A stretch of DNA of 57,496 bases from Deltaproteobacteria bacterium (GTDB taxonomy: Bacteria; Myxococcota_A; Polyangia; JAAYKL01), in the NCBI GenBank assembly GCA_028713995.1, contig JAQTNF010000013.1, forward strand, positions 1-57,496, read 5' to 3'. The notes beneath the pieces are model-generated. The model saw only the letters and a list, made by a program, of their open reading frames with translations. It was not told the origin of the DNA and did no database searches. The position numbers were made by a program, and so were the translations under genes. Each line of letters starts with the position of its first letter. Position 1 is the stretch's first letter. Shown piece after piece: positions 5,651-25,433 of the stretch.

Positions 5651-6634
5651 TTACGCGCCGGGCTTCCTCGCCGTGAGGCTCCAGCGCGATTTCGAGAAAT
5701 CGACACGGCGCTCGTAGCGCAGCCCCGCAGCCTCCATCCACGCGCGGATCTCGGGCTCGGACCAGGTGTCGCCCCGCGAGCGCATGTTGATGGCGAAGAG
5801 CGCGCCCATCAGGCTCTCGTCCTTGGCGTCGTCGATGGAGAAGTCCACGACCACCAACCTGCCGCCGGGTGCGAGGGCGTCCGCGGCCTGGCGCACGAGC
5901 CGCGCAGCCCTGTCCCGCGGCTCCTGGTGCAGCACGTTCGCGATCTGCACGAGGTCGTAGCCGCTCCCGTACGGCGTCTCGAGGTAGTCGCCCTCGATGA
6001 AGGCGATGCGGCCTTCCAGGCCCGTGCCGGCCCAGAGCTCGCGACCGAGCAGCGCGACCTCGGGCGTGTCGAGCACCACGGCGGCAAGATCCGGGCGCGC
6101 GCGACAGTACGCGGCAGCGTAGGCGCCCACGCCGCCTCCCACGTCGAGCACACGGCGCACGTCCGTGAGATCGAGCGACGCGATCGCGGCCGGCGCCACC
6201 GAGGACGCCATGGCGCGCATGGCCTCGCTGAACCGCCGTACCTCATCCGGGTTCCTGCGCCGCATCTGCCAGTCGCCGCCGCGCAGCCACGCCTCCAGGT
6301 TCTCGCCCCAGCGCTCGTACATGGCGTGCGCGTGCTCGACGAACGGAGTGGCGTCGGTCTCGCCCGGAGTGAAACGCCCCGCGAGCTGCGCAACCACGGC
6401 GTAGCGACCGCCGCCCTTGGCCTCCACGACTCCGAGCGCCGCGAGCGCGCGCACGATCTTGCCCGAGGCGATCGGATCGAGCCCCAGCTCGCGCGCCGCC
6501 TCATCGGCGGTGGCCGGCCCGCGATCCAGGCGCCGAAGAATTCCTGCGCGCACCGCCACGGTCAGCACCCTGTGCCCCGCAAAGCTCCACAGGAGCTCGT
6601 TGAACCCGTCGGTGTCCATCCGCGTTTTCCCCAT
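5651..6634 (-). CDS. SAM-dependent O-methyltransferase (dimerisation domain + class I fold)
   Basis: The 327-residue protein has an N-terminal winged-helix dimerisation domain (about 10-90) and a Rossmann methyltransferase domain. The SAM loop is VLDVGGGVG (162-170), Asp189 is the expected ribose-binding acid, and the NVLHQE motif (His236) matches the catalytic His of the acetylserotonin/hydroxyneurosporene O-methyltransferase family. It should methylate a small hydroxylated substrate that I cannot identify. GAGGAGG precedes the ATG at 6634. It stands alone between the VOC gene and the HU promoter region. Confidence 0.85.
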   Translation of the reverse strand: MGKTRMDTDGFNELLWSFAGHRVLTVAVRAGILRRLDRGPATADEAARELGLDPIASGKIVRALAALGVVEAKGGGRYAVVAQLAGRFTPGETDATPFVEHAHAMYERWGENLEAWLRGGDWQMRRRNPDEVRRFSEAMRAMASSVAPAAIASLDLTDVRRVLDVGGGVGAYAAAYCRARPDLAAVVLDTPEVALLGRELWAGTGLEGRIAFIEGDYLETPYGSGYDLVQIANVLHQEPRDRAARLVRQAADALAPGGRLVVVDFSIDDAKDESLMGALFAINMRSRGDTWSEPEIRAWMEAAGLRYERRVDFSKSRWSLTARKPGA

Positions 6635-6910
6635 GGCGTCCTCCTCTCATGCACCTCGATGCGACACAACCGAAAAGGCACGGTTTGGTGTTGTAGTTTT
6701 ACACCGTATTCCCGCGTCGTCCATCTACCCCAGCGGATTATCCCAGGAACCGCGCGCCTCGCGTGGTCGCTTCGCGAGCGTGGCCTTGTCCCACGCGGAC
6801 ATGGCAGCGGTCACGTCGTAAATCCCCCGTCTTCTCTGCCTTATCCCGAAGCCATTTTCTCCGGGCCAGCAACGGCGCGGGATATCCGGATGTGGGGTAT
6901 GATTTTTCGC

Positions 6911-6939
6911 TTGACAGATGTGATTGCTGAACATATGAT
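6911..6939 (+). promoter_or_regulatory. Consensus sigma-70 promoter of the HU gene
   Basis: TTGACA (6911-6916), a 17-bp spacer and TATGAT (6934-6939) make a nearly perfect housekeeping promoter. Transcription should begin near 6946. The rest of the gap from 6635 to this site shows no gene, only a short GGATATCC palindrome near 6880. Confidence 0.88.
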
Positions 6940-6941
6940 GC

Positions 6942-7012
6942 GGTTGTTTGAACCGTGGGGAAACTCAAGAGATTTTCTCCCGAAACAACCGGTCGCTTTT
7001 GCGACCAGGAGG
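6942..7012 (+). promoter_or_regulatory. Structured leader of the HU mRNA
   Basis: GGTTGTTT (6942-6949) is exactly complementary to AAACAACC (6983-6990). Immediately after it comes a 6-bp hairpin, GGTCGC-TTTT-GCGACC (6991-7006), whose last base abuts the SD AGGAGG (7007-7012). The second hairpin could gate ribosome access. The first inverted repeat overlaps the expected start site, so it may act as DNA rather than RNA. Confidence 0.5.
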
Positions 7013-7021
7013 AATCGACAG

Positions 7022-7312
7022 ATGACGAAAGCAGAACTGATTGACGCGGTGGCGGGATCCAAGTCGGTGCCCGAGGGGCTCTCGAAGAAGGCCGTTCAGG
7101 CGGTGATCGACGAGACGTTCGAGGAGATCAAGAAGTCCCTCAAGAAGGAAGACCGCTTCTCCTTCCCGGGCTTCGGCACCTTCGCGAAGAAGAAGAGGGC
7201 CGCTCGCAAGGGCCGCAACCCGCAGACCGGCGCCCCGATCCAGATCAAGGCGCAGACCACGGTCGGCTTCAAGCCGGCGCAGTCCCTCAAGGACTTCGTG
7301 GGCAAGCGGTAG
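7022..7312 (+). CDS. HU family DNA-binding protein
   Basis: The 96-residue protein is a classical HU/IHF-family histone-like protein. It opens with MTKAELIDAVA, has the FPGFGTF turn, and carries the arm motif RKGRNPQTGAPIQI with the intercalating Pro in the usual place. It bends and compacts DNA as a dimer. The ATG at 7022 follows AGGAGG by 9 nt and a consensus promoter. It is a monocistronic gene with a leader that looks regulated. Confidence 0.97.
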   Translation: MTKAELIDAVAGSKSVPEGLSKKAVQAVIDETFEEIKKSLKKEDRFSFPGFGTFAKKKRAARKGRNPQTGAPIQIKAQTTVGFKPAQSLKDFVGKR

Positions 7313-7340
7313 TCCCCCCCCCGGATCTCCCGTCCGCTCC

Positions 7341-7649
7341 CTACTTGAACACCGACAGGATTCGCTTCATCACGGTCGTGTCCTCTTCCTTGAGCACGAG
7401 CTCGAGCTCGCCCGCGTCGAGCCAGATGCCCTCGCACGACGTGCACTTGTCGATGTTGATGCTGCGGAAGCTGATCTCGACCAGATCGCCGCCGCATTTG
7501 GGGCAGTGCATGTGGTGCAGCTCCTTCCGGCGCTCGCGCTCCGCGGCCTCCTCCTTGGCCCTCTGCTGGGCCGCGAGGGCCTTCAGGCGCTCGTACTCTT
7601 TCCTTGCGAAATACTCGGATTCCTTGTCGCTGGGTTTCTCCAGGGCCAT
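7341..7649 (-). CDS. TFIIB-type zinc-ribbon protein
   Basis: The 102-residue protein has a charged helical N-terminal half (heptad-like, about 15-45) and a zf-TFIIB domain with CPKCGG and CTSCEG knuckles, then WLDAGELE, the family signature. The ATG at 7649 is preferred over an upstream start because GAGGTGAC precedes it. Zinc binding is secure, but the partner is unknown. It follows the cyclic-nucleotide-domain gene by 38 bp on the same strand, so the two are probably cotranscribed. Confidence 0.85.
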   Translation of the reverse strand: MALEKPSDKESEYFARKEYERLKALAAQQRAKEEAAERERRKELHHMHCPKCGGDLVEISFRSINIDKCTSCEGIWLDAGELELVLKEEDTTVMKRILSVFK

Positions 7650-7687
7650 GTTGTCACCTCGTTTGTCAAATCGGGTTGAAACGGAAA

Positions 7688-9004
7688 TCACACCAGCACG
7701 AGGTCATCCGCCGCGGCCGTGGACGACGCCATGATGGAGTTGTTCTGGTCCTCGCGCCTGGCCGCGATGTCGTAGGCGCCCTTGAGCAGCTCCGGGTGCT
7801 CGCCGATGGCCGCGTGGAAGTCGTCGCGCGGCAGGAAGAGCAGGGCCGTGTCCTCGACCGCGGTCACCGAGGCGGTGGACGGCTTGCGCATGAGGAGCGA
7901 GATCTCGCCGAAGAGCTCGCCCGGGCCGAGGCTCGCCACGACCACGTCCTCGCCGCCGTCCTTCCTCGTCACGCGCACGAGCCCGGAGACCACCAGGAAG
8001 AGGCCCGGGCCCTCCCGGCCCTCCTCGATGATCGTGGTGCCGGCCTCGCGATAGTCGGTTCCGAAGCGGGCCACCACCTCGAGGCGGCGCGCGGGCGGGA
8101 TGGGCGCGAGCACGGGCGAGATGCGCATCAGGTTCTCGAGCATGCGGGCGTGGCAGAAGGCGATGAGCACGTTCCCGATTTCCGGGATCTGCGCGGCGAG
8201 CTGCTCCATGTCCTCCTTCGAGGCGACGAGCGATACCGTCCTGTCCACCGCGCGCACCTCGGCCGCTCGCGGCGCGCGCGACACAAGCGCCATCTCGCCG
8301 AAGAACGCGCCGGGCCCGAGCTGGGCGAGCTCCACGGAACCGCCGCGAGGCGGGTGCAGGATGACTGCCACAGATCCCTCGATGATGATGTACATCGCGT
8401 CGCCGGGGCGCCCCTGTTTGACGATCACCTGGCCCGGCTCGGCCGTCTCGCGCTTGAACACGTGCAGCAGGGGAACGAGGTCGTCCGGACGGAGCGCCGA
8501 AAGAAGCGGGACATAGGGCAACTTGGTGTTCTGGCCCGCAAAGGCCATGGCAGCACCCCAGGCCATCACCATGGCCTCGTTGGCCCGCTCCACGGCTTCG
8601 TCGATGCCCACGGACGCGTCCCAGGCCGGCACCGGCCGGATCGGAGGCAGGGGTGGCGGCGCGGCGGGCATCTCAACGATCCGCGGCGAGCCCGCGCCGT
8701 ACATGACCGCAATCTTGTGGATCAGATCCGCCACCTTGCCCCCGAGCTCCGCGAGCTCCTGGACGACCGCCAGCGCGAAGAACGGGCTCTGGCTCTCGGC
8801 CAGGGCCATGGCAACGCTGCCCAGGTTCTTGAGCGCGATGTCGGTCTGCCCGAGCCCGAGCAGGGCCGTGGCGCACAGGCGCCAGGCCGTCAGGTCCTCG
8901 GAGTTGGCCTCGAGCATGGGCCCGGCCATGCGTAAGGCCTGCTCGTGCTCACCGGCCAGCAGGAGATCCCTGGCCGCCGGATGGGTGCTTTCGGTTGTCG
9001 CCAT
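7688..9004 (-). CDS. Protein with TPR-like N-terminus and two cyclic-nucleotide-binding domains
   Basis: The 438-residue protein has a helical TPR-like segment (about 10-105), a Pro-rich linker, and two CRP-type cNMP domains (about 170-285 and 300-415). Each carries the phosphate-binding cassette core FGE (FFGEMALVSRAP at 234 and LFGEISLLMRKP at 364). The first keeps an Arg near the expected phosphate-binding position (Arg246). The second has Ser-Thr there and probably does not bind a cyclic nucleotide normally. There is no DNA-binding helix-turn-helix, so a sensory or scaffolding role is more likely than transcription control. The ATG at 9004 lacks a strong SD. Confidence 0.82.
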   Translation of the reverse strand: MATTESTHPAARDLLLAGEHEQALRMAGPMLEANSEDLTAWRLCATALLGLGQTDIALKNLGSVAMALAESQSPFFALAVVQELAELGGKVADLIHKIAVMYGAGSPRIVEMPAAPPPLPPIRPVPAWDASVGIDEAVERANEAMVMAWGAAMAFAGQNTKLPYVPLLSALRPDDLVPLLHVFKRETAEPGQVIVKQGRPGDAMYIIIEGSVAVILHPPRGGSVELAQLGPGAFFGEMALVSRAPRAAEVRAVDRTVSLVASKEDMEQLAAQIPEIGNVLIAFCHARMLENLMRISPVLAPIPPARRLEVVARFGTDYREAGTTIIEEGREGPGLFLVVSGLVRVTRKDGGEDVVVASLGPGELFGEISLLMRKPSTASVTAVEDTALLFLPRDDFHAAIGEHPELLKGAYDIAARREDQNNSIMASSTAAADDLVLV

Positions 9005-9184
9005 TGTCGCCGCTTTCGACAGCGCCGCGCCAAAGCGCGGCCGTGCGTGATCATAGCTCAGGAGCCGCCGCACCATCAAGTGCCGGTCCTTGAACAAAAA
9101 TTGATCGATCCGAGAATAAAGTCGGAAACGGATCCGTCGAAGCTTTTGTCTATTGCGGCGCGTGGTGAATCGGAAACTCAGGTA

Positions 9185-9213
9185 TTGAAGTGGCGAGAAA
9201 AAATTGCAATAAT
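9185..9213 (+). promoter_or_regulatory. Possible promoter of the Cys-rich lipoprotein
   Basis: TTGAAG (9185-9190), 17 bp and AATAAT (9208-9213) lie in an AT-rich stretch about 78 bp before the ATG. Four and five of six positions match consensus. Nothing else is recognisable in the 286-bp gap. Confidence 0.45.
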
Positions 9214-9290
9214 GCAAGGACTTGATAGAAACCAAGCACGTCTCAACGTGCGAATTTCCGCTTACGGCGGGGAAAAGGAGAACGGGCATC

Positions 9291-10007
9291 ATGAGTAAGA
9301 ATATTTGGTTGGTGGTCCTTTGCGCTCTGGCTCTGGCTTTCGCGGGCATGGGCTGCAGCGACGATGACGACACGAACGCCGGCGACGCCGGGAACGACGC
9401 GAACACCGACACGGGCACCGACACGAGCACCGACACGGACACCGACAGCGATACCGACAGCGATACCGACAGCGATACCGACAGCGACACCGACAGCGAC
9501 ACCGACGGCGACACCGACACCAACATCGGCGATGCAAGCCCGGATGCCGACGCGGACGCTGCACCGGACGCCAGCCCGTTCGTGTCCTGTGATATCGACG
9601 GCGGGCCGGCCACGTGCGGCGAGATCCCGGGCGACTGGTACTACGGCTGCTGCCAGGGCAACTCGGCCTTCTGGTGCCAGGACGTCGGCGACGCGGGCTC
9701 GGACGGCGGCCTCGTAGACGGCGGCTCCGCGGTCGAGACCATGAACTGCACGGAGCTCGAGGCGACCTGCGGCCACACCGCGGAGTTCGACATGTACTGC
9801 GAGCCGACCGTGACCACAGTGGTGGACTGCTCCGCCGACATCCCGACGATTTGCGGCGACCTGGGTGACGAGTTCGCTCAAGTCTACGGCTGCTGCGCCG
9901 GCGACGTGGTCTACTTCTGCGACGGTACGATTCAGCAGATCGACTGCGATGCCAGCGGCCTAGCCTGCGGGTTCGACCCGGCCGCCCTGACCCTCGACTG
10001 CATCTGA
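9291..10007 (+). CDS. DT-linker lipoprotein with two Cys-rich modules
   Basis: The 238-residue protein has a lipoprotein signal (lipobox AGMGC, Cys22), a low-complexity Asp-Thr-Asp-Ser linker (about 35-80), and two similar Cys-rich modules. Each module runs CG(E/D)…YGCC…C and ends in a C-x-C-rich tail (about 105-165 and 183-238), which suggests an internal duplication stabilised by disulfides. It should be lipid-anchored and exposed. AAGGAG precedes the ATG at 9291. It is convergent with the TPR gene. The function is unknown. Confidence 0.85.
   Translation: MSKNIWLVVLCALALAFAGMGCSDDDDTNAGDAGNDANTDTGTDTSTDTDTDSDTDSDTDSDTDSDTDSDTDGDTDTNIGDASPDADADAAPDASPFVSCDIDGGPATCGEIPGDWYYGCCQGNSAFWCQDVGDAGSDGGLVDGGSAVETMNCTELEATCGHTAEFDMYCEPTVTTVVDCSADIPTICGDLGDEFAQVYGCCAGDVVYFCDGTIQQIDCDASGLACGFDPAALTLDCI
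9403..9522 (+). repeat. Asp-Thr/Ser-encoding tandem repeat
   Basis: Hexamer/dodecamer units of the type GACACC and GACAGC repeat in frame and encode the acidic linker of the lipoprotein. A short run is almost perfect 12-mers. Confidence 0.85.
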
Positions 10008-10043: not shown

Positions 10044-13000
10044 TTAGCCTCCCAGCCGATCGAGCTCGGCCTGGACCTCGCCCCTGTCGATGGCGCTCTC
10101 GGGCGCCACATCGAGGTAGTGCTTGAACGTGGAGATGGCCGATGCGCGCTGGCCGGACAGCGCCTGCGCCGTGCCGAGCCGGTAGAGGGACTCCAGGTAC
10201 CAGGACGGGCGCGGATCCGCCTTCTCGGCGAGCGACGCCGCCCGAAGCAGGCTCGCGGACGCGGCGTTGGGTCCGGAGGTCGTGAGCTCGGCCATCCCCA
10301 GCTTGAAGAACAGGCCGCCGTTGTCCGGCAACTGCTGCACGGCCTTTCGGTAATAAGCCACCGCCGTGCGCAGATCCGAGAGCTGCTCGAAGGCCTCGCC
10401 CACGAGCCCGTAAGCCTCGGCCAGCCGGGGATCGAGGGCCAGCGACTGATCGAACAGGGCGATGGCGTCCTTGACCGCGCCGTCCCTCAGCCGCAGCTCG
10501 CCGATGCGCATGTAGACCTCGGCCATCTTGGGATCGAGCTCCTTGGCCCGCTCGTACTCGTGCATGGCCTTGGCCGTGTCGCGCACGTCCGCGAACACGG
10601 TTCCGAGGCGCAGGTGGTAGTGGGCGTTGCTGTCGTCGAGCGCGGCCGCGGTCTGGAGATAGGCGATGGCCTCGGCCGGCCGGGCGGTGGAGCGCAACAC
10701 CTCGCCCATATAGAAGTTGGCCTCGGCCGACTTGGGATCCTGGGCCAATGCCTCGTTCAACACGGACTCGGCGCGCGCATCCTTGCCGAGGAAGTGCGCC
10801 GCTCCGCCCACGCGGATCTTGAGGTTCAGGTCGGTCGGGTTCGCGGCCAGGGTCTTCTCGTAGACCGCGAGCGCCTCCTCGACCTTGCCCGAAAGCTCCA
10901 TGAGCAGGCCCTGCTCCGTGGCAAGGCCGTTGTACCTGGGGTTGCGCTTCTCGACCTCCTTGAGGGAGTTCGCCGCGTCCCCGAAGCTGCCCATGCTCCT
11001 GTACATCTGGGCCATGCGGAAGTGGGCCCGCACGTTGTCGGGCTCCTTGTCGAGCGCCCGCCCCAGCTCCACGATGGCCGTCGCGAAGTCGCCGCGCGAC
11101 GCGTAGGCGTCGGCCAGGGTCATGTTGACGAGCGCCGCGCTCGGAACGGTCTTGGCCGCCTCGTCGAGCGTGCGCATGGCCTCCATGTCGCGGCCCGTCT
11201 TGAAGTAGACCTCGGAAAGCGCCACGTAGGGATCCAGGTACTCCTTGTCGAGGGCGTTGGCCGCGCCGAACTCCTTCATCGCCTCGTCCATGTTCTTCAT
11301 GATGACCGCGAGCCGGCCGAGAAGGTAGTGGAGCCGCGCGTTGTTGGGTTGCTTGGGCAAGAGATCCTGCAGGATGCCCCGGCTCTCGGCGAGCATTCCC
11401 TGCCTGATGAGCGTGTCGGCCTGGCCGAGGGTCGCCTCCACGTCGGACGGATCCTCGGAGCGCGCCTTGGCGAACGCGGTCGCGGCCGCGGTGAAGTCGT
11501 CGTCGAGGAGCGCGAGCTCGCCCCTGCCCACCAGCATGACCACGTCCTTGTCACTCGACTTGCCCGCGAGCTCGAACTCGGAGCCGGCCTTGGCGTACTC
11601 GCGTTCCTTGAGGCAGAGGCGCCCGAGCAGGGCATGCGCCCGCGCCTTCTCCTGGGAGCTCGTGAGGCTGGGCACGGCACCCGCCACGGCATCGAGCAGC
11701 GCGCGGATGGCCGCCGGATCGCGCTTTCGCGCTTCGAGCATGATGGCGGCGAGGGCGAGCTTGGCGTCCGAGTGGCGGGGGTTCGCCTTGACCATCTCGC
11801 CGAGGAGCTCGACGCCCTTGTCCTTCTGCCCTGCACGCAGGAGGGCTCGCACCATGATGTACGAGGCTCGGGCCGACTTCTGTTTGGCCTGAAGCTTCCT
11901 GGCCGTGAGGATGGCCGCCGCGTAGTCGCCCGCGATGAGCTGCGCCTCGGCCAGGAGCGCGAGGCCGTTCGGCGTTGCCCCGGCGGGGCCGTTCAGCGTC
12001 AGGACGGCTTTGGGCACGCGAAGCCCCCGAATGTCGCTCGACGCGATGGCCAGGGGCGCATACTGCGATTCCGATTTCTCGATGTTGATCGCGCCGAGCA
12101 GGCGCGTCACGGCCGCGTCGTGCGCCTTGTCGTCGCCGAAACGGATCTGGTGCCAGTTGTGGAGGAACACGCCGTACAGGCGCAGATCCTCGTTGTCGGG
12201 CATCTCGCGCAGCGCCTCCTCTACCCTGGAGACGGCACCGCCCACGTCCTGGAAGGTGTCGTCCGAGAGCCCCTTGTCGACGCTGGCGTTGAGCACGACC
12301 ATCATCTTGTCGACCCCGGCGCGTGGCAGGAGCTTGGCGAGCGCATAGGCGCCGAAGGGGCCGAGCGGCGTAAAGGCCATCCCCGCGCCCACGAGCCCGA
12401 CGACAACGATGAGCACGAGCAGGACGATCCGCAGCCTGCGGCTCTGGCGCTCGTATTTGCGACGGCCTTCGAATTCCACGCCGGTGCGCCGCTCGGAGCG
12501 GCCCTCGGCCGCGCTTGGAACCCGCTCGTCGATGACCGAGCCCCGCTTGGCGATGTCGCCGTAGTCGTCCTGGATGTCGAGGCCGCTGTCGCGCGGCCCC
12601 GCCTCCGCGGAGCGCTCCTCCTCCTTCTTGACGGGGAACGCGTCGAACTCCCCGCCGTCGTCCTGCGGGGGCGCGCCGAGATCGATCTCGCCGAACGTGG
12701 TGCTGCCGCTCGTCTTGACCCGGCCCAGGGACTGGGAGGAGCTCGGCATGGCGGGCGGCAGGGAAGGCAGCGTAAAGGTCCCGGTGGTCGGCTTGGCGGG
12801 AGCGGCCGGAGGAACCGGAGCAGCCGCTGGAGCCGAAGCGGCCGGAGGAGCCGAAAGCCCGCCGAACGCGGCCCCGAGCGGCGGAAACGACGGCGGTCCG
12901 GGCAAGGCCGAAGGCGCCATGGGGGCGCCCAGTCCATGCACGGTGGGGTTCTTGGGTGGCGGCGCGGACAGGTCGAAGCCGCCGAGGGGATCGTCGAACG

Positions 13001-13787
13001 GGCCCGGCAGGGCGGAAGGAGCCCGGGGCTTGCCGAGAGGAGCGCTCGCAAGGTCGAGCTTGGCCGACAGGGGATCGCCCACCCCGATCTCGCCGAAGGC
13101 GACCGTCTTGGATGCGGACGGGGGCGCCGCGGGCGGGACCGGCGGAGCAACGGGCGCGGCCATGGCGCGCGACGGCGTGGGCAGATCCATCTCGCCGAAC
13201 GGATCGTCGTCCTCCTTGCCGGGCAGATCCATGGCTCCCGCGGGCGTGGGCAGGTCAGTGACCCCGGCGGGCATGGGAAGATCGATGCTCCCGAATGGAT
13301 CGTCGACCTTGGGCGCGGGCAGATCCACGCCGCTGAACGAGCCGGTGCTCCTCGGGACGGGCAGATCCATGGCGCCGAACATGTCGTCCTGTCTGGTGCC
13401 GGACTTGGGCGCGGGCAGATCCGAGAAGTCGGGATCGCCCATAAAGGGATCGACGTAGCTCCCGCCGGACAACACAGGCGGCATGCCCGAGACCTCGCTG
13501 TCGTCAGCCCCCCGCGGCGGCGTACCGAGGAGTGACGGGCGCTTGGGAGGAACGGAAGGGCGCGCCGGCATGACCGGCATCCCTCCCGACTTCGGGACGT
13601 CCGGGATCGTCCCTTCTCCCGCGTCCGCGCCCGAGCCGTCGCCGCGCTCGGCCGCATCGGCCACTCCGCTCTTCGTCACCGTAAACGATCTGGAGCACTG
13701 CGGGCACCGCATCTTGAGGCCCGTTTCCGGGATCCGGTGGTCGTCGACCTTGTACGCGCGGTCGCATCCGGGGCAATTGACCTTCAT
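10044..13787 (-). CDS. Zinc-ribbon / transmembrane / multi-TPR protein
   Basis: The 1247-residue protein begins with an MJ0042-type zinc ribbon (Cys5, Cys8, Cys28, Cys31). A long Pro/Ala-rich cytoplasmic linker follows, with repeated FGxxDLPxP-like units at about 119-210. One transmembrane helix spans about 453-472, and some 700 residues of tandem TPR repeats (about 490-1247) should lie on the far side of the membrane. Proteins with this layout occur in myxobacteria-like genomes and are thought to scaffold envelope complexes. The ATG at 13787 has GAGGAGG 11 nt upstream. It is divergent from the ketosynthase fusion. Confidence 0.88.
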   Translation of the reverse strand: MKVNCPGCDRAYKVDDHRIPETGLKMRCPQCSRSFTVTKSGVADAAERGDGSGADAGEGTIPDVPKSGGMPVMPARPSVPPKRPSLLGTPPRGADDSEVSGMPPVLSGGSYVDPFMGDPDFSDLPAPKSGTRQDDMFGAMDLPVPRSTGSFSGVDLPAPKVDDPFGSIDLPMPAGVTDLPTPAGAMDLPGKEDDDPFGEMDLPTPSRAMAAPVAPPVPPAAPPSASKTVAFGEIGVGDPLSAKLDLASAPLGKPRAPSALPGPFDDPLGGFDLSAPPPKNPTVHGLGAPMAPSALPGPPSFPPLGAAFGGLSAPPAASAPAAAPVPPAAPAKPTTGTFTLPSLPPAMPSSSQSLGRVKTSGSTTFGEIDLGAPPQDDGGEFDAFPVKKEEERSAEAGPRDSGLDIQDDYGDIAKRGSVIDERVPSAAEGRSERRTGVEFEGRRKYERQSRRLRIVLLVLIVVVGLVGAGMAFTPLGPFGAYALAKLLPRAGVDKMMVVLNASVDKGLSDDTFQDVGGAVSRVEEALREMPDNEDLRLYGVFLHNWHQIRFGDDKAHDAAVTRLLGAINIEKSESQYAPLAIASSDIRGLRVPKAVLTLNGPAGATPNGLALLAEAQLIAGDYAAAILTARKLQAKQKSARASYIMVRALLRAGQKDKGVELLGEMVKANPRHSDAKLALAAIMLEARKRDPAAIRALLDAVAGAVPSLTSSQEKARAHALLGRLCLKEREYAKAGSEFELAGKSSDKDVVMLVGRGELALLDDDFTAAATAFAKARSEDPSDVEATLGQADTLIRQGMLAESRGILQDLLPKQPNNARLHYLLGRLAVIMKNMDEAMKEFGAANALDKEYLDPYVALSEVYFKTGRDMEAMRTLDEAAKTVPSAALVNMTLADAYASRGDFATAIVELGRALDKEPDNVRAHFRMAQMYRSMGSFGDAANSLKEVEKRNPRYNGLATEQGLLMELSGKVEEALAVYEKTLAANPTDLNLKIRVGGAAHFLGKDARAESVLNEALAQDPKSAEANFYMGEVLRSTARPAEAIAYLQTAAALDDSNAHYHLRLGTVFADVRDTAKAMHEYERAKELDPKMAEVYMRIGELRLRDGAVKDAIALFDQSLALDPRLAEAYGLVGEAFEQLSDLRTAVAYYRKAVQQLPDNGGLFFKLGMAELTTSGPNAASASLLRAASLAEKADPRPSWYLESLYRLGTAQALSGQRASAISTFKHYLDVAPESAIDRGEVQAELDRLGG

Positions 13788-13845
13788 TTGTGCAAAAGCC
13801 TCCTCGTCGAGCAACGGCGGAAAGGACCCTGACCGGCTCACGTGG

Positions 13846-13874: not shown

Positions 13875-13934
13875 GCTCCTGGACCGGCCACTTCTCTTTT
13901 GGTATGCGGGGACGGCCTCACGCGAAGGAGGAGC

Positions 13935-16250
13935 ATGCGGCGGCGCGTTGTCGCAACCGGGGTGGGAACCGTGTCCGGCGTGGCCCGCGACGCTCCGGGC
14001 TTCGCAGCGGCCCTGCGCGAGGGCAGGCGGGGGTTCTCGCGCATCGCGGATCCGAGGCTCGCGCGCCTTCGCGCCACCCACGCCGCGCTCGTCCACGATT
14101 TCTCGCCGGCTCCGTCCGATCCCGAGACCGTGCGCGCCCTGGACCGTCACGTTCACCTGGCGCTCGCCGCGTTGCGCGAGGCCTTGCGCGCAAGCGGCCT
14201 TTCCGGCTTCGACCTCGGCCCGCGCGCCGGGGTGGTGCTCGGCACGTGCTCGGGCGGCATGCTCTCCATCGAACGGCACCACGAGGCGCTCGCGCGCGGC
14301 GAGGATCCGCTCGACGACGCTCTCCTTTTCTCCAAGCGATACTACGGGGCGGCGCGAGTCCTGGCCTGGGCCGCGGGCGCGGGCGGCCCCGTGCTGACCG
14401 TGGTCACGGCATGCGCGGCGGGATCGGGCGCCGTGGCCGAAGCCGCGAACCTGATCCGCGCCGGGCTGGCGGACGTGATGCTCGCGGGCGGCGCCGACGC
14501 CTTCGCGCCCTCGACCCTGGCCGGGTTCGACGCGCTCAAGGCCACTTGCGAGGGTGCGTGCGCTCCGTTTTCGCAGAACGTGGGCCTGAACCTGGGCGAA
14601 GGTGCGGCTTTCCTGGTGCTCGAGGAGCTCGGGCACGCGTTGGACCGCCGCGCCGAGCCGCTCGCGGAGCTCCTGGGGTTCGGGCTCTCGGGCGACGCGT
14701 ACCACCCGACCGCGCCCGACCCTTCGACCAAGGGCCAGGTGACGGCCATGCTTGCGGCGCTCGCCGACGCGGGCGTGCCGCGCGAGGCAATCGCGTACGT
14801 GAACGCGCACGGCACGGGCACGCGCTCCAACGATCCGATCGAGGTGAAATCAATCGCGCGCTGCCTGGGCCCGCGCGCGGCCGAGGTGCCGGTGAGCTCC
14901 ACCAAGTCGATGCTCGGCCACTGCCTGGGCGGCGCCGGCGCCCTCGAGGTCGCGGCCACGATACTCGCCGCGCGCGCCGGGTTCGTCCCTCCCACGGCCG
15001 GCTTTACGACGCCGCGCGAGGGCTGCAACGTCGATTGCGTGCCGGATTCCGGACGCCCGTGGCGCGGTCGCATCGCGCTCTCGAACAGCTTCGGGTTCGG
15101 CGGCAACAACGCCTGCCTGGCCATCGACGTGGCGCCTGAAAACCGGGGCCCGGCCTTCGCGCAGAGAGAGCCCGCGGCCGAGTGCGCGGTCGTGACGGGC
15201 GTGGGGCTCGTGAGCCCGCTCGGCCTCGGCGCGTTCGCGCTCGCCGACCCGAATGCGAGGGGCATCGCGCCCGCGACACGTTTCGAGACGCCTTGCGCGC
15301 CGTTCCCGGCCGGGCTCGTGCCGCCCCTCGATCCGCGCGAGGTCGACCGCCGCCTCGATCTGCGCGACATGGACCGCTGCTCCACCTACGCCGCGCTCGC
15401 CGCGCGCGCGGCCCTCGACTGCGCCGGCGTCAAACCGCGACCTGCGACCATGGCCGAGGTGGGCCTCATCCTGGGACTGGCCACCGGGCCGAGCGAGGGC
15501 GAGGAGCGCCACCTTTCGGCCGTGTTCCGCGGCGCGTTCAACCTCGAGAGCCTGGGCGCGTTCCCGTACGTGGTGCCCAACTCGGTGGCGGGAAACGTGA
15601 CCCGAGCGCTCATGCTGCGCGGGCACAACAACGTCCTCGCGACCGGAGCGGGCGCCGGGCTCGCGGCGCTCGTGGTCGCGACCGTGGCCGTGACACAGGG
15701 TCACACGTCTTGCGTGCTGGCCGGCGCCTCGGACGAGCTCTCGGCGCGCACTGTGTCCGACGGGCACAAGGTCGGGCTGTTCGGCCCCGGCTCGAGCGTC
15801 ATCCCCGGCGAGGGCGCGGCAATGCTGCTCGTGGAGCGCGCCTCCTTTGCCGCGGCACGGGGCGCGAGCGGACGGGCCGAGATCCTGGGATTCGGCCTGG
15901 CCGCGGATCCTCGCGATCCACGGCGCGCCACGGACGGCTCGCCTCTCGCGCGCTGCCTCGCGGACGCCCTCGATCGCGCAGAAGTTCGCGCGGACGAAGT
16001 GCGGGCCGTGGCCACGAATCTCAGCGGATCGCCCATCGACCGGTTCGAGCGAGAAGCGCTCGCGTCCGTGCTCGGACCGCGCGACGTGGAGATCGTCTCG
16101 CTCGCGGATCGCCTGGGCACGGCAGAGGCCGCGCTCCCGCTTTTCAGCCTGGCGTTCCTCTTCGAGACGCTCGAGCCGGGCTGCACGGTCGCGGCCACCG
16201 CGCTCTCGCCAGAGGGGCTCGCCGCGGCGGTCGTCCTGCGCCTCGCGTGA
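13935..16250 (+). CDS. Fused ketosynthase / chain-length-factor-like protein
   Basis: The 771-residue protein contains two thiolase-fold beta-ketoacyl synthase domains in tandem. The first (about 1-400) has the full triad: Cys160 in VVTACAAGS, His292 in NAHGTGT and His329 in KSMLGHCLGG. The second (about 417-771) has lost it: Ala572 replaces the Cys, and both His motifs are gone (TNLSGSP and DRLGTAEAA). This resembles a KS-alpha plus KS-beta (CLF) pair of type II polyketide or aryl-polyene systems joined in one chain. It would elongate an ACP-bound chain, but no ACP, ketoreductase or other pathway gene is nearby. AAGGAGGAG precedes the ATG at 13935. Confidence 0.85.
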   Translation: MRRRVVATGVGTVSGVARDAPGFAAALREGRRGFSRIADPRLARLRATHAALVHDFSPAPSDPETVRALDRHVHLALAALREALRASGLSGFDLGPRAGVVLGTCSGGMLSIERHHEALARGEDPLDDALLFSKRYYGAARVLAWAAGAGGPVLTVVTACAAGSGAVAEAANLIRAGLADVMLAGGADAFAPSTLAGFDALKATCEGACAPFSQNVGLNLGEGAAFLVLEELGHALDRRAEPLAELLGFGLSGDAYHPTAPDPSTKGQVTAMLAALADAGVPREAIAYVNAHGTGTRSNDPIEVKSIARCLGPRAAEVPVSSTKSMLGHCLGGAGALEVAATILAARAGFVPPTAGFTTPREGCNVDCVPDSGRPWRGRIALSNSFGFGGNNACLAIDVAPENRGPAFAQREPAAECAVVTGVGLVSPLGLGAFALADPNARGIAPATRFETPCAPFPAGLVPPLDPREVDRRLDLRDMDRCSTYAALAARAALDCAGVKPRPATMAEVGLILGLATGPSEGEERHLSAVFRGAFNLESLGAFPYVVPNSVAGNVTRALMLRGHNNVLATGAGAGLAALVVATVAVTQGHTSCVLAGASDELSARTVSDGHKVGLFGPGSSVIPGEGAAMLLVERASFAAARGASGRAEILGFGLAADPRDPRRATDGSPLARCLADALDRAEVRADEVRAVATNLSGSPIDRFEREALASVLGPRDVEIVSLADRLGTAEAALPLFSLAFLFETLEPGCTVAATALSPEGLAAAVVLRLA

Positions 16251-18582
16251 GCCGCAAAGCGTCGCCCGCTCCGGGCCTGGCCTCGCCCTCGGTCGTCTCG
16301 CCGTCCGGACCGGCGTCCGCATCGAGCTCGACGGCCGGGAGCGGACCCGCGGCCTTGGGCTTCTCGGCGGTGGCCGGCAGCTCGGGGGGCGCCTCGCCAA
16401 AGAGGAGCCGGTAGCGCACGAGGTTCTGCCACACGCGGCGCACGTACGAACGGGTCTGGTCGAAGCCCGCCTTCTCCACGAACAGGTCGAGGGGCAGCCC
16501 GCTGGAGCGATCGAGCCAGCGCCCGACGGCCGCTGCTCCGCCGTTGTAAGCCATGATCGCGAGCGGCAGCGAGCCGAAGCGCCGGAGAAGATCGCGCAGC
16601 TCGAAGCCCGCGGCGCGGATGGAGTCGTCCGGGCCGGGCACGCCGCCTTCCGAGATCTGCCGCACGCCGGCCAGCTTGGCGTTGCGCGCGTACACGAACG
16701 GCATCATCTGCATGAGGCCCACGGCTCCCACGGGCGACACGGCGCGCGGATCGAACATGCTCTCCTTGCGCGCGATGGCGTAGACGAGGAAGCGCGGCAG
16801 CCCGTGGCGTTCCTCGGTCCGCCTCACCACGTCGGCGTAAGGCGCGGGGTACGCCGCTCGGGCGCGCCACAGATCGCGGGGCGCGGGAGGCCAGCCGAGA
16901 TTCGCGCTCGCCCGTGCGATGGCGTGCTGCGGCGCATCGAGTCGCACGTACGCGGCGATCCACGACACCACGCCCGCCTTGGCCGAACCCTCCTGCTCCT
17001 CCGCATGCAGCACTTCCGCGGCTTCGCGCCAAAGCCCGGCCCGGGCCAGGAACCCGGCCAGCGGTGACAACTCCTCGAGCGGCAGGACCTTGGGGGTCTC
17101 TCCGGCGCCGGTCACGGGATCGAGGCGGCACGGGCCCGGGGCCTCGCCGAGCGCCATGAGCCTCGCCCGGGCGTGGAGCGCGTACCACGACGTGGGATCG
17201 CCGCGGCACAGGTCGCGCAGGAGATCGAACCCTCCCCTGCCCTTGGCCTCGACCCGGGCCACGGCCGTCCAGTAGCGGTTGCGCGCGAGCGCCTCGGCCG
17301 GAGCGTCCTGCGACGCGGCCTCGAAGTGGAGCGCGGCGCGCTCGGGCTTGAAAGTGCGCAGCGCGCTCAAGCCCGCCAGGAAATGGGCGTCGCGAACGTC
17401 GCCGGCCGGGAGCGCGGGCGAAGCGACGCTCTTCCCGGGCTTCCCCCTGCCCACGAGCGCCTCGAACGAAAGGAGCGCTTCCCTCTCTTTCCCCATGAAG
17501 AACTCGAGGCGCGCCGCGAGGAACCGCGCCTGCGCCGCGCGCTCCTTGCTCCTTGCCTTGCGCGCGAACGACCGGTATGCGGCGACGGCCTCGTCGTCAC
17601 GGTCGAGCCGCGACAGCGCCCGTGCGGCCAGGAACGCCGCATCCTCCACGTGCGGACCTCGCCCGGCAGCAATCCTGCCGAGAGCCAAAACGGCCTCCGC
17701 GTAATGCCGTCTCCGATCGTAGAGCACGTTGGCCTCGATCCAGCGCGCCTCGGCCTCGTCCGCCTTGGAGGCCTTGCTCAACACCGGAGCGAGGGTCGCG
17801 AGCGCCGCGTCGAACGCGCGGTGTGCGGCGAGCGTTTTCGCCCGCGCCAGGCGCTGGGCCGCGTTCCATGTCGTCGCGAGCCCGGCCGCCGCGAGCGCGG
17901 TCTCGGCCTCGCGCATGATTTTGCCGGATGCTGCGTCAAGGGCGAGCGGATCGAGCAGCGCCCTCGCCTGCGCGGTCTTTCCGAGAGCGAGCAGCACCCG
18001 CCCCTCGGCCAGCGCGAGGCGATCGCGCACCGACCTGGCGCCCGCCTTGGCCGACGCGGCATGATACGCGGCCGCGGCCGACGCGAGATCGCCCGCCTTT
18101 TCGAGCCACGCGGCCCGCTCCTCGGCCAGCGCCACGCGACCCGCGAGGGGTTCGACCTCGGCGGCCGCCTCCTTGAAAGAGCCGGCCCCGGCCAGGACCC
18201 GCGCGAGCCCCATGAGCCGAAGCGGCTCGATCTCCGGCGGCCCTCCGACGAGCGCGCGGTAGAGACGCGCGGCCTCGACGTGATCCCCGAGCGCCGCGGC
18301 CACACGCGCCCCGAGGAAGACCGACTCAGGACCTTGCGCGCCCGAAGCCGAAAGGAGCGTCCTTGCACGCGCCGCGTCTCCGGACTCGAGGGCGCGACCC
18401 GCGTCCTCGAGCGCGACCTGCGCGCGGGAAGCAGCTCCGGCATCCTGCCTCGAGGGAACCGCCCGTGTCTTGCCGGCGCCGCCTGCCGTGTCTTGCTGCC
18501 CGGATCGCGCAGGCGCGCCGTTGCCGGCACATGCCGTGAGCGCGAACGCGAGCGCGGGCAGGAACGCGACTTTCGGGTCCAT
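16144..18582 (-). CDS. Slt70-like lytic transglycosylase lipoprotein
   Basis: The 812-residue protein has a lipobox (LTAC, Cys18), a long helical superhelix rich in Ala and Leu (about 60-570, like the Slt70 U-domain) and a C-terminal SLT domain. The catalytic Glu is about residue 607 in ARKESMFDP, followed by VGLMQMMP and AYNGG. It should cleave peptidoglycan glycan strands, giving 1,6-anhydro ends. The ATG at 18582 is chosen because the signal peptide starts there; no clear SD is seen. The last 36 residues are Arg/Pro-rich and are encoded opposite the end of the ketosynthase gene (107-bp convergent overlap), so the natural stop may have been lost. Confidence 0.87.
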   Translation of the reverse strand: MDPKVAFLPALAFALTACAGNGAPARSGQQDTAGGAGKTRAVPSRQDAGAASRAQVALEDAGRALESGDAARARTLLSASGAQGPESVFLGARVAAALGDHVEAARLYRALVGGPPEIEPLRLMGLARVLAGAGSFKEAAAEVEPLAGRVALAEERAAWLEKAGDLASAAAAYHAASAKAGARSVRDRLALAEGRVLLALGKTAQARALLDPLALDAASGKIMREAETALAAAGLATTWNAAQRLARAKTLAAHRAFDAALATLAPVLSKASKADEAEARWIEANVLYDRRRHYAEAVLALGRIAAGRGPHVEDAAFLAARALSRLDRDDEAVAAYRSFARKARSKERAAQARFLAARLEFFMGKEREALLSFEALVGRGKPGKSVASPALPAGDVRDAHFLAGLSALRTFKPERAALHFEAASQDAPAEALARNRYWTAVARVEAKGRGGFDLLRDLCRGDPTSWYALHARARLMALGEAPGPCRLDPVTGAGETPKVLPLEELSPLAGFLARAGLWREAAEVLHAEEQEGSAKAGVVSWIAAYVRLDAPQHAIARASANLGWPPAPRDLWRARAAYPAPYADVVRRTEERHGLPRFLVYAIARKESMFDPRAVSPVGAVGLMQMMPFVYARNAKLAGVRQISEGGVPGPDDSIRAAGFELRDLLRRFGSLPLAIMAYNGGAAAVGRWLDRSSGLPLDLFVEKAGFDQTRSYVRRVWQNLVRYRLLFGEAPPELPATAEKPKAAGPLPAVELDADAGPDGETTEGEARPGAGDALRLTRGAGRPPRRAPLARARWPRPCSPARASRRGTPG

Positions 18583-18701
18583 GCCGCGCACCATAGCACG
18601 TTCCATTCATGCCACTCGCGCAAGATCGGCGTGCAAGAATGCAATGAAACCGGTGAAAAGAATGGAAACGTTCTGCGACGGCTTGACGTAATTCCCTTTG
18701 G

Positions 18702-21715: not shown

Positions 21716-24700
21716 TCAGGTGATCGCTTCCTCTACTACCCTGATCTCCTCCTTGGACAAACCGTAGAGTTCGTACACGAGGGCGTCGATCTCTTGGTCC
21801 GTGGCTGCTAGACGGCGCTCGAGGCGCGTGCGTTCGTCGTCGCTCCTCGTCTCGGGGAGCTTGCGGTGAAGATCGAGCATCAGTTCGACGAGCTTCACGA
21901 TGCGGTCGTGAGTAGACCTTTCGTAGGTGTCGGAAAGGCTGATCGTCCGGATCGGGAGCTTTCCAAAGTACTGTTTGGTGCACGGGATCCAGTTGCCTTG
22001 AAAAACGTTGCCCTCGGTAAGCGTGCGCAAGAACCAAAAAAGAAGGCGGGAGTTCAGTAACCCCAGGACGTACGCCGGGTGCAGTGCCACGGTCTCGCCA
22101 AGCGCGATGCTGAATCCCCCGCTCGCCATCAGGAAAAGGCCACCAACACGTGACCGAGGAACGAGCGTGCCAAGCCCCCGATCCGCTAGCAAAGGCACAA
22201 CGATTTGTGCACGGTCGTGGAGTCCGAGGCTTCTGGGCGCACTGTACCCATACCACGCCTTGAATTGCTTTCGACCAGTCAGGACCGTCTTGTGAGACTT
22301 GAGGTACTCGTAGGCTCTCGGGTATCGAGCCCGAAGTTCCTCTTCCGCAAGCAATCGATAGTCCGCGTCGGACTCCTTCACATATGGAAACAGAATTCGC
22401 CATTTGCCTTGGGGCTTGAACTTGTAACGTCCGAAATCAGTTGCCCATATGGGCTCGCGGAGCAACTCGTCCTCCACGATGGAAGATCCGGCTTCAACAA
22501 GAAAAACCGCGTCCTCTCCAGTGCTGCTACCGCGACTCATGTTCGCGGGCAAGTCGAGTAGAGAAACGGTGTTGTGAGATAGCTTTTCCGCGATGCTTAG
22601 AGAGGCCTCGGAGCCAAACGACCAAGTGCCGGCGCCCAAAGTTACCGGGGCGATCTCGGTAAAATCACATGCCTGGAGTGCGTCGGCGCAGGGATCGGAT
22701 TCTCCGTATTCAAAGCGTGAGGACTGGTGCTTTTCGAGAAACAGAAGGCAGGTGTATGTGGTTGCGGACTCGAAAACCTGCTTCGCTCCGAAATCCACAA
22801 TGCGGGAGACGTGTTCCCCTTCGGTAAGCAGCGTGCGGAGATTCGCGCCGTAGTCGGTGCTGAAGAACTTGCTTGGTAGAATGAAACCGAGAACGCCGCA
22901 TTTGTTTGCTAGGTCGAGGCCGCGCTCGACGAATACCACGTAAATGTCGTAACTTCCCTGCCGCGCTGAGCGAAACCGCTCCTTGTAGTAGTCAACTTCG
23001 ACTGGCGCCCACTCCTTCATGTGCTGGATGCGGATGTACGGCGGATTGCCGATCACGGCGTCGAAGCCGGGGTTTCCGTTGTCGAAGACGCGCGGAAACT
23101 CCCGTTTCCAATCGAAGGCATTGACGCGATGCTCGGTGACCTCGTCCAGAAGATCCAGTTGTCTGTCGTGGTAGAACTCTGGGCCGATGAGCGAGTTGCC
23201 GCACTTGATGGTAGTCGCGAGATCCGGGAGCGCGCGCTCCGCCCACATCTTGAGCTGGCTGTTCAACGTGTCCTGGTTCTCGTTCTCCAGCACCTTCAGC
23301 AGCAGCGACAGCTTGGTCACCTCTACCGCCTGCCTGTCGATGTCAACACCATGGATGTTGTTGAGCAGGATGCGCTTCTTCTCTGCGGTCGTGAGGTGCC
23401 ATGTGTCGCCCACGGGATAGACGGCCGGTGGATCGCTCTTCTTGCGTCGCTTGCCTTCCGGCGGCGGCGATGTGGGAATCTTCCCCGTGCGTTTCGCCTC
23501 GGTGACGTAGAGCACGAGGTGGACGTCGTAAAGGTATTGAAGCGCGACGAGCAGAAACGATCCCGACCCGCAGGCCGGATCGAGGACCCGCAGCTTGGAG
23601 AGAGCCTTGACGTCCTTCCCCTCGCACAGCCGGCCGATCGTGTTCTTCACGATATAGTCCACGATGTACCTGGGCGTGTAGTAGACGCCGCCCGCCTTGC
23701 GCACCTCGGGTTTAGGATCCACGAACACGCGTTTCGGCGTCAGGCGGATGGTCTTTCCCAGGAACCGCTCGTACACGTGCCCGAGGATCTCGGGCGGCAT
23801 GATGCTGAAGTCGTAAACCGAGTACGCCTTGTCGTCGTACAGGGTTGAAAGAATCTCCCGAAGCACCTTGTCGTCGATCTTGAGCCTGGGTGTCAGCGTG
23901 TCCGGAACACCCTCGCGATCTTTTTCCGTCGTGAAGTGGAATAGGCCCGAGTTGTACTTGACGTCCGCCTTGCTGAAGATCTCGACAAGCCGCGGGTAGA
24001 TGCGCGGCCCGGCCATCAGTCCATGGAGTTGAGCGATCCGCTCGATGCCGCGATCCTCACACATGCGCAGGAACACGATCCGGTCGATGATGAGCTGCAC
24101 GGCGAGGTTCAACTCTTCGGGGGCCAGTTCTGAGTGGTTCTTGTGGATCTCCTTGGCGAGCAGCTCCCGCCAAAGCTCCATGTCCTCGAGAAACTTCTCG
24201 TCCACCTGTTTCACGGCGCGCTTGCGGTGTTTGCCGGTTGCGAACTTGTCGAAACTGCCCTTGAGGATTGCCTCGCGCGAGAAGACGGTCTCGATTTCCT
24301 CCCATCGGTCTGCGTACTCGGTGAAGCGGATGTAGTCGATGCGCGCGGTGGTCGCCGTGTCCTTGGGCGAGATGGGGATGCGGCAATCGTAGATCGCGAA
24401 CTCCTCGAAGTCCGTGACCACGCACGCCGGCAATTTAGCGTTCCATCCGTAACGTCGAAGCTGGATCGCCCACCGCGGATCGCTCTCGAGGTCGGCCGAA
24501 GGGCGCTTGGCCTCCACGAAGAACTTCGTGGCACCGCCGATGCGAAACGCGTAGTCCGGTGTGCCGGACGGTCCGACTGCCTTGCTGCGGTCCTCGTGCA
24601 CCACGTCGCGGTATGGCGGTGCATAGCCGGCTTTGTTCTCCATGTCCCAGCCGAGGGCCGCGAAAAACGGATTCAGAAATTCCTGGCGCAGGTCGGCCTC

Positions 24701-24781
24701 GTCGTAGCCTTTGCCCTTGTAAACGTCGATGTTGGCGCGGAACCTCTCGACTAGGTTAAGGATGGTCTGCGGCGCGGTCAT
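21716..24781 (-). CDS. Eco57I-type (type IIG-like) restriction-modification enzyme
   Basis: The 1021-residue single-chain enzyme has an N-terminal PD-(D/E)XK nuclease (Pro75-Asp76, Glu90-Ala-Lys92 in FFVEAKRPS) and a helical connector. A gamma-type N6-adenine methyltransferase follows, with motif I DPACGSGSFL (401-410) and motif IV NPPY (579-582). The C-terminal 350 residues should be the target-recognition region. One polypeptide would both methylate and cut DNA. It ends the leftward operon, starting 49 bp after the HNH-like gene. Its active residues look intact. Confidence 0.92.
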   Translation of the reverse strand: MTAPQTILNLVERFRANIDVYKGKGYDEADLRQEFLNPFFAALGWDMENKAGYAPPYRDVVHEDRSKAVGPSGTPDYAFRIGGATKFFVEAKRPSADLESDPRWAIQLRRYGWNAKLPACVVTDFEEFAIYDCRIPISPKDTATTARIDYIRFTEYADRWEEIETVFSREAILKGSFDKFATGKHRKRAVKQVDEKFLEDMELWRELLAKEIHKNHSELAPEELNLAVQLIIDRIVFLRMCEDRGIERIAQLHGLMAGPRIYPRLVEIFSKADVKYNSGLFHFTTEKDREGVPDTLTPRLKIDDKVLREILSTLYDDKAYSVYDFSIMPPEILGHVYERFLGKTIRLTPKRVFVDPKPEVRKAGGVYYTPRYIVDYIVKNTIGRLCEGKDVKALSKLRVLDPACGSGSFLLVALQYLYDVHLVLYVTEAKRTGKIPTSPPPEGKRRKKSDPPAVYPVGDTWHLTTAEKKRILLNNIHGVDIDRQAVEVTKLSLLLKVLENENQDTLNSQLKMWAERALPDLATTIKCGNSLIGPEFYHDRQLDLLDEVTEHRVNAFDWKREFPRVFDNGNPGFDAVIGNPPYIRIQHMKEWAPVEVDYYKERFRSARQGSYDIYVVFVERGLDLANKCGVLGFILPSKFFSTDYGANLRTLLTEGEHVSRIVDFGAKQVFESATTYTCLLFLEKHQSSRFEYGESDPCADALQACDFTEIAPVTLGAGTWSFGSEASLSIAEKLSHNTVSLLDLPANMSRGSSTGEDAVFLVEAGSSIVEDELLREPIWATDFGRYKFKPQGKWRILFPYVKESDADYRLLAEEELRARYPRAYEYLKSHKTVLTGRKQFKAWYGYSAPRSLGLHDRAQIVVPLLADRGLGTLVPRSRVGGLFLMASGGFSIALGETVALHPAYVLGLLNSRLLFWFLRTLTEGNVFQGNWIPCTKQYFGKLPIRTISLSDTYERSTHDRIVKLVELMLDLHRKLPETRSDDERTRLERRLAATDQEIDALVYELYGLSKEEIRVVEEAIT

Positions 24782-24830
24782 TTCGTTCTTCCCCTCGGGG
24801 TTCCTCGGTGTTCGGGTGCTTCGTGTTCAT

Positions 24831-25433
24831 TCACCATGGCATCGCCGAAAGATCGATGCCGAGCTCCTCTTCGACGGCGGTCACAAAGCACAAGTGCTCG
24901 GGGTGAGCAGTAAACCAGTCGCGCCTCTTCTGTTCGTCATATTTCGCATCATCTTCAAAGATATCCCGCAACATTTTGATGTGCCGGATTCTCTCCTCGC
25001 ACAGGCAGCTATCGTTGAAGCCGAGGAAGTCAATGAGAGCCGCAGCTTCGTCGTCGCCAGCGGTCGTCTCCTCGTACACGCCGTCTCCAGCCACATAGCG
25101 GATCCTGCTGTTGAGCTCGTCTCGGTCCTGAAAGAACAGGGAAGCAAAGAAGGCCGCACCGGCGTGTCTCTCTTCTTTGCCCCTCTTGCGGAGGTTGGCC
25201 CCGTGGAGGACGGCGTAGTAGTTGAAATAGTCGTCGTCTCCCTTCTTCGTTTTATCGAAGTGCTCCACATCGACCGAGTCGAGACCGTCGACACGCTTCT
25301 CGGTATAAGCGCAGAAGCCACACTGTTCGGCGAGAAGCATGTCGCGCAGGCGGGTATTGTGACCATTCCTGTCGTAACAGATCCCCTCGGCAAGGATCGC
25401 CGAGCCTGTGTTTTTCGAGAGGAACTTCATCAC
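24831..25433 (-). CDS. HNH-like protein, PtuB-like (Septu-type)
   Basis: The 200-residue protein carries one zinc-type knuckle (Cys38, Cys41 in CGFCAYTEKR) followed by VDVEHFDK (Glu57, His58) and a conserved-looking NYYAVLHGANLRK with Asn80. This is the order of an HNH/betabeta-alpha-Me nuclease in the PtuB/TIGR02646-like group, though the second CxxC pair of classical members is not visible. It starts inside the stop of the ATPase gene (ATGA overlap at 25430-25433), so the two products should be made together. It is probably the nuclease effector of a two-gene ATPase/HNH defence module. Confidence 0.75.
   Translation of the reverse strand: MMKFLSKNTGSAILAEGICYDRNGHNTRLRDMLLAEQCGFCAYTEKRVDGLDSVDVEHFDKTKKGDDDYFNYYAVLHGANLRKRGKEERHAGAAFFASLFFQDRDELNSRIRYVAGDGVYEETTAGDDEAAALIDFLGFNDSCLCEERIRHIKMLRDIFEDDAKYDEQKRRDWFTAHPEHLCFVTAVEEELGIDLSAMPW

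Follow-up and report, generated by a model that had tools for sequence, protein, structure and literature searches.

A one-chain ketosynthase with a CLF-like second half and candidate partner genes at separate loci in a deltaproteobacterial genome

A single gene in a deltaproteobacterial assembly (GCA_028713995.1) encodes a ketosynthase (KS) and a second, inactive KS half in one chain, with no pathway genes around it. Whether such a protein could serve as a KS-CLF (chain length factor) pair, and where the rest of its pathway would lie, are the questions raised by this locus. The window is the whole stretch of DNA that was analysed, the 57,496 nt of contig JAQTNF010000013.1 (C13). Architecture, active-site residues, orthology, the operon of relatives, co-occurrence and the predicted fold were established by computation. 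The gene, referred to as KSKS2, is open from the ATG at 13935 to the stop at 16250 on the forward strand, and its translation has 771 aa. The gene and its surroundings comprise the following features.

13922..13931, + strand: probable ribosome-binding site, AAGGAGG region, upstream of ATG 13935; letters GAAGGAGGAGCATG
13935..16250, + strand: KSKS2, one-chain KS-CLF protein, 771 aa (translation, Pfam, full-length orthologues)
13935..15134, + strand: N half, catalytic FabF-like KS, residues 1-400 (active-site columns kept; clade 97/94)
15135..16247, + strand: linker and C half, CLF-like KS fold without catalytic residues, residues 401-771 (A/N/A/T columns; clade 100/100)
14412..14414, + strand: codon of the nucleophile Cys160, equivalent to E. 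coli FabF Cys163 by alignment; invariant in alignment A1
14808..14810, + strand: codon of catalytic His292, HGTGT motif, equivalent to FabF His303; invariant in alignment A1
14919..14921, + strand: codon of catalytic His329, GHCLGGAG motif, equivalent to FabF His340; invariant in alignment A1
15648..15650, + strand: codon of Ala572, nucleophile position of the C half (alignment)
10044..13835, - strand: divergent neighbour, zinc-ribbon/TPR protein, start approximate (Pfam); outside the pathway
16144..18606, - strand: convergent neighbour, SLT lytic transglycosylase (Pfam), a mechanically listed ORF whose ends may differ; outside the pathway

The G+C contents at codon positions 1, 2 and 3 of the KSKS2 ORF were 0.757, 0.575 and 0.886 and were near-equal between the halves; the codon composition of both halves is that of a real gene. 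Pfam domains PF00109 and PF02801 were each found in two stretches, with the N half far over the cut-off. Full-length orthologues were present in four genomes of the same family (G005, G007, G009 and G010) at 55-59% identity and in a Lentisphaerae MAG at 43% identity. ACP, KR, AT and other PKS genes were absent among the 28 larger window ORFs scanned, in agreement with the earlier note, which had found no ACP, KR or AT nearby. Elsewhere in the window, an Eco57I-like methylase gene with an AAA ATPase gene nearby (21716-26791) may represent a restriction or defence locus, and an IS91-type transposase is located at 31528-33060.

The active site of each half was read from an alignment of 84 KS domains with E. 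coli FabF as the reference. The N half of KSKS2 carries C-H-T-T-K-H-E-F at the eight active-site columns, including the full Cys160/His292/Lys324/His329 set and the gating Phe, and its N- and C-terminal KS domains, together with the Cys-His-His set, place it in the beta-ketoacyl synthase superfamily (KAS I/II). The score against the FabF equivalog TIGR03150 was 437.3 bits, under the cut-off of 493.75. The C half carries A/N/A/T at the Cys/His/Lys/His columns, which is the pattern of a KS-CLF pair, where the second KS has neither the nucleophile nor the catalytic His and Lys. The alignment bears out what had been read from the letters, namely a full Cys-His-His set in the first KS and Ala at the Cys position with no catalytic His in the second. 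In six KSKS2-type relatives the C-half Cys position is occupied by P, L, R, E, P and P. The occurrence of Pro, Leu, Arg and Glu in these relatives excludes a sequencing error, and together with the separate clade of C halves described below it opposes the possibility, raised earlier, that the second half is a catalytic KS with a sequence error at the Cys.

A maximum-likelihood tree was built for 80 KS domains, with Pfa KS references from two genomes (G384 and G197). The 24 C halves came together in a single clade (100/100), separate from catalytic KS. The clade divides into a KSKS2 side and a side of KSKS1, the other one-chain type found in this genome and its relatives, and the N halves divide likewise. 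The N half of KSKS2 grouped with the N halves of other one-chain KS-CLFs (97/94), and these lay apart from FabF, FabB, ApeO, actinomycete KS-alpha and Pfa KS. The tree gave no firm order for the deepest splits among the KS and CLF clades, and the branches were long. Distances among N halves closely followed those among C halves (Mantel r 0.90-0.92; none of 2000 permutations gave a value as high). Judged from these sequences, one ancestral KS-CLF fusion followed by duplication would fit best.

KSKS2 might instead be a tandem FabF duplicate, the second copy of which is decaying and functionless. The C half does evolve faster than the N half (48-50% versus 60-68% identity to orthologues), and the residue at its Cys position is not conserved. 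However, the C half is near full length, and invariant at 43 positions, across seven KSKS2-type proteins drawn from three families in two phyla; it retains a coding G+C3 of 0.879, and in the tree it clusters with the KSKS1 C halves, away from FabF. A decaying duplicate is therefore very improbable. The phylogeny proposed in the earlier note as a check grouped neither half with FabF, so that alignment and tree both speak against ordinary FabF duplicates.

The AlphaFold2 model of KSKS2, built from 5 sequences, had a pTM of 0.77 with 203 residues below a pLDDT of 50. At a mean pLDDT of 66.7, its best PDB match was 6riw, the KS-CLF didomain of PfaC, over the full chain (TM 0.71, query-normalised; E 1.5e-32), and the best single FabF chain ranked behind it (E 2e-22). 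The model supports an intramolecular KS-CLF arrangement, although it is not proof. Thus alignment, tree and predicted full-length PfaC-like fold agree with the original description of a KS and an inactive CLF-like KS in one chain. By sequence, the best PDB match of the whole protein was 9s5h (E 2e-70 to chain B); like KSKS2 this entry combines two different KS, but as separate chains, B and C.

The statement that there is no pathway around the gene is true of the window, but since relatives have an operon, it describes a local feature of this genome. In G005, G007, G009 and G010, a B12-binding radical SAM (rSAM) gene is directly followed by two adjacent one-chain KS-CLF genes. The order rSAM-KSKS1-KSKS2 is seen in loci L018, L050, L051, L052 and L088. 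KSKS1 and KSKS2 overlap or abut (9807/9810 in L018 and 12061/12062 in L050), as translational coupling would predict. An ACP gene and a GcvT-like gene lie about 5 kb downstream of the KSKS pair in G010 (L050, L062). The order in G060, from another family, is rSAM-KSKS1-KSKS2-ACP-KS-CLF-like. The Lentisphaerae MAG (L019) has rSAM and KSKS1 in a single frame, followed by KSKS2, ACP, GcvT-like and SDR genes, and KSKS1-ACP-GcvT-SDR was found in G729. Genes on AT-rich contigs were taken as the longest ORFs. The rSAM protein of L018 has Radical_SAM and B12-binding Pfam domains over their cut-offs, which identifies it as a B12-binding radical SAM protein, and the CX3CX2C motif was present in the rSAM proteins of this genome and of relatives in an alignment from which the L050 row was left out. 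In the GcvT-like protein of L019 the Pfam domains, folate-binding domain included, were found and an Asp was kept in the alignment; its NCBIfam GcvT score was 126.3 against a cut-off of 300.

Some of these loci show further arrangements. At 13370-15947 of L088 (G060), an ACP, a separate KS and a CLF-like gene come after the one-chain pair, so fused and unfused forms are side by side. The rSAM and one-chain KS-CLF of L019 make up one open frame of 1250 codons (6252-10004). rSAM and KSKS1 are also one frame at 2-3475 of L106 (G715, from the same phylum set as L019), a locus cut by the contig start.

Eleven KS-domain matches were found in the genome under study, including KSKS1 on contig C131, a second one-chain KS-KS with 42% identity to KSKS2. 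The rSAM homologue (73% identity) is on contig C7, and homologues of the ACP (74%) and the GcvT-like protein (51%) adjoin each other on contig C5. With KSKS2 on C13, the rSAM, KSKS1, KSKS2 and ACP-GcvT genes are on four different contigs of an assembly of 218. The KS-CLF copies in the window and on C131 are both flanked by unrelated genes; hence the operon is split at the KSKS1 locus too. The homologues on three other contigs support the earlier proposal: the remaining genes of the pathway probably lie elsewhere, and sequence similarity points to C7, C5 and C131 as candidate loci in this genome. On contigs C34 and C121, a catalytic KS adjoins a KS-like gene without the Cys, and by sequence these are probable unfused KS-CLF pairs. 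On C34, FabZ-like, CLF-like, KS and SDR genes stand in a row (L015, 7687-11322), a candidate unfused KS/CLF set.

Co-occurrence was scored over 13 genomes of the family; G012, which is incomplete and shows only part of an rSAM gene, at the edge of a contig, was set aside. The rSAM and GcvT-like genes were both present in 7/7 genomes with a fused KS-CLF and in 0/6 without it, as raw counts uncorrected for relatedness. G001 and G002 showed KSKS1 alone, truncated where the contigs end. All six genomes of family f35 also had the GcvT-like gene, which was further present in four genomes of the L019 phylum set and absent from G060.

The dispersal over four contigs could be taken to mean that the pathway has been broken up into a relic whose scattered pieces no longer make one product. 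This is unlikely: all five genes are open, clearly similar to their counterparts and have kept their active sites, and partial dispersal is common, because relatives, too, often carry the GcvT-like gene on a different contig from the KS-CLF.

The reading that we favour, with a probability of about 0.78, is that KSKS2 elongates ACP-bound chains as a KS-CLF heterodimer formed within one polypeptide, working with KSKS1, a dedicated ACP, the B12-binding rSAM and the GcvT-like protein, encoded at four separate loci here. As the partner genes are non-adjacent here, their joint function in this genome is what we infer, and the same applies to catalysis, chain-length control and the product. By analogy with the biochemistry of FabF and KS-CLF, Cys160 would accept the acyl chain from acyl-ACP, and His292, Lys324 and His329 would serve in decarboxylation of the malonyl extender and in condensation. 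The inactive C half may stand in for the second subunit, contributing the opposite face of the dimer interface and helping to shape the acyl tunnel. The rSAM and GcvT-like proteins would act on the chain while the ACP carries it. A lipid or polyene-like acyl chain is the probable product, altered by radical SAM chemistry and possibly by folate-dependent one-carbon chemistry.

It is possible, and we suggest it only tentatively, that these genes belong to a type II pathway for acyl chains or polyenes that has not been described before and is spread over at least two phyla. Such a pathway would combine two one-chain KS-CLFs, a dedicated ACP, a B12-binding rSAM (in two MAGs fused to one of the KS-CLFs) and a GcvT-like protein whose substrate is the chain on the ACP, leading to unusual carbon chemistry in a lipid. 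The GcvT-ACP pair would then be comparable to GcvT and H-protein in the glycine cleavage system, which the ACP-GcvT adjacency recalls as an analogy only. The open-licence papers searched described neither a stand-alone fused type II KS-CLF nor the rSAM/ACP/GcvT partner set, which is weak evidence of absence; searches on GcvT with KS likewise gave nothing on this system, and no paper on PDB 9s5h turned up. Natural one-chain KS-CLFs hold the heterodimer at 1:1 stoichiometry. Should they express well alone, chain-length control could be studied with them free of the difficulties of assembling subunits. The conserved set of partners suggests that these little-studied bacteria possess a lipid or polyene pathway yet to be characterised, and a neighbourhood missing in one genome can be resolved through the operon of relatives.

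Anammox bacteria offer another comparison, a ladderane-like lipid pathway. The rSAM weakly matched TIGR04072 (rSAM_ladder_B12), and in Kuenenia a B12-rSAM, Kuste2803, is near an inactive FabB/F paralogue, Kuste2805, as their close locus numbers indicate (PMC2649909). However, the match scored 42.7 bits, far under the family cut-off of 360, and the Kuenenia KS genes are separate. We therefore give a ladderane-like pathway very little credence.

Strong matches were found in 10 of the 379 genomes sampled in the phylum of the window and in 5 of the 388 sampled in the phylum of L019, where one match was confined to the N half. A KS-CLF in one chain is already known from PfaC and from plasmid-borne fused forms. 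The earlier note described type II polyketide KS-alpha/KS-beta pairs as normally separate genes; the one-chain form is not new in itself. KS-CLF didomains have been discussed for PUFA synthases (PMC13311796, which cites Santin et al. 2020 for the PfaC didomain, PDB 6riw). Like PfaC, KSKS2 has a KS and then an inactive CLF in one chain. PfaC, however, belongs to a multidomain synthase of type I, whereas KSKS2 is a stand-alone protein of 771 aa with no DH, in a clade apart from Pfa KS, including the Pfa3 KS of myxobacterial relatives, and its candidate partners comprise a B12-rSAM and a GcvT-like protein besides a free-standing ACP. KSKS2 also combines a catalytic and an inactive KS as type II KS-alpha/KS-beta pairs do (actinorhodin 1TQY and ishigamide 6KXD, both among the PDB matches), but there the subunits come from separate genes with an adjacent ACP. 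In the two labelled Streptomyces CLFs sampled, which form their own clade, Gln occupies the Cys site, whereas KSKS2-type C halves have Ala, Pro and others.

ApeO-ApeC of aryl-polyene (APE) pathways is likewise a Gram-negative type II KS-CLF, and KSKS2 might be a fused version from such a pathway. In family f35, of the same phylum as the window, fused KS-CLFs of the KSKS1 type are found beside GT2, LolA, MMPL and DUF3261 genes (L086, L087, L089-L092), an aryl-polyene-like setting that is also seen at the APE KS genes of E. coli CFT073. The window copy, however, is in the KSKS2 clade and the f35 proteins are on the other side of the KSKS1/KSKS2 split. Its N half is apart from ApeO; ApeC is a separate, half-length CLF of 240 aa; and the family of the window has the B12-rSAM instead, the APE gene set being absent among the larger window ORFs scanned. 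An APE origin thus seems improbable, and an intramolecular heterodimer with the rSAM, ACP and GcvT-like partners remains the preferred reading.

Fused KS-CLFs were also found on plasmids of Priestia, Pseudalkalibacillus and Streptomyces. Like KSKS2, the proteins of Priestia plasmid pBMG6 and of the Streptomyces plasmids are one-chain KS-CLFs, of about 800 aa. The plasmid forms differ in their identity of only about 30-38%, in having no rSAM listed nearby and in being the single fused KS-CLF within the plasmid stretch read. A gene upstream of the Pseudalkalibacillus KS-CLF was considered as a GcvT candidate and rejected, as it gave no match in the comparison. The fused KS-CLF of pBMG6 adjoins ACP, FabZ, FabG and GcvT-like genes, and in Priestia megaterium pBMG6 (L115, 3816-8163) the ACP, FabZ, GcvT-like and fused KS-CLF genes stand in one row.
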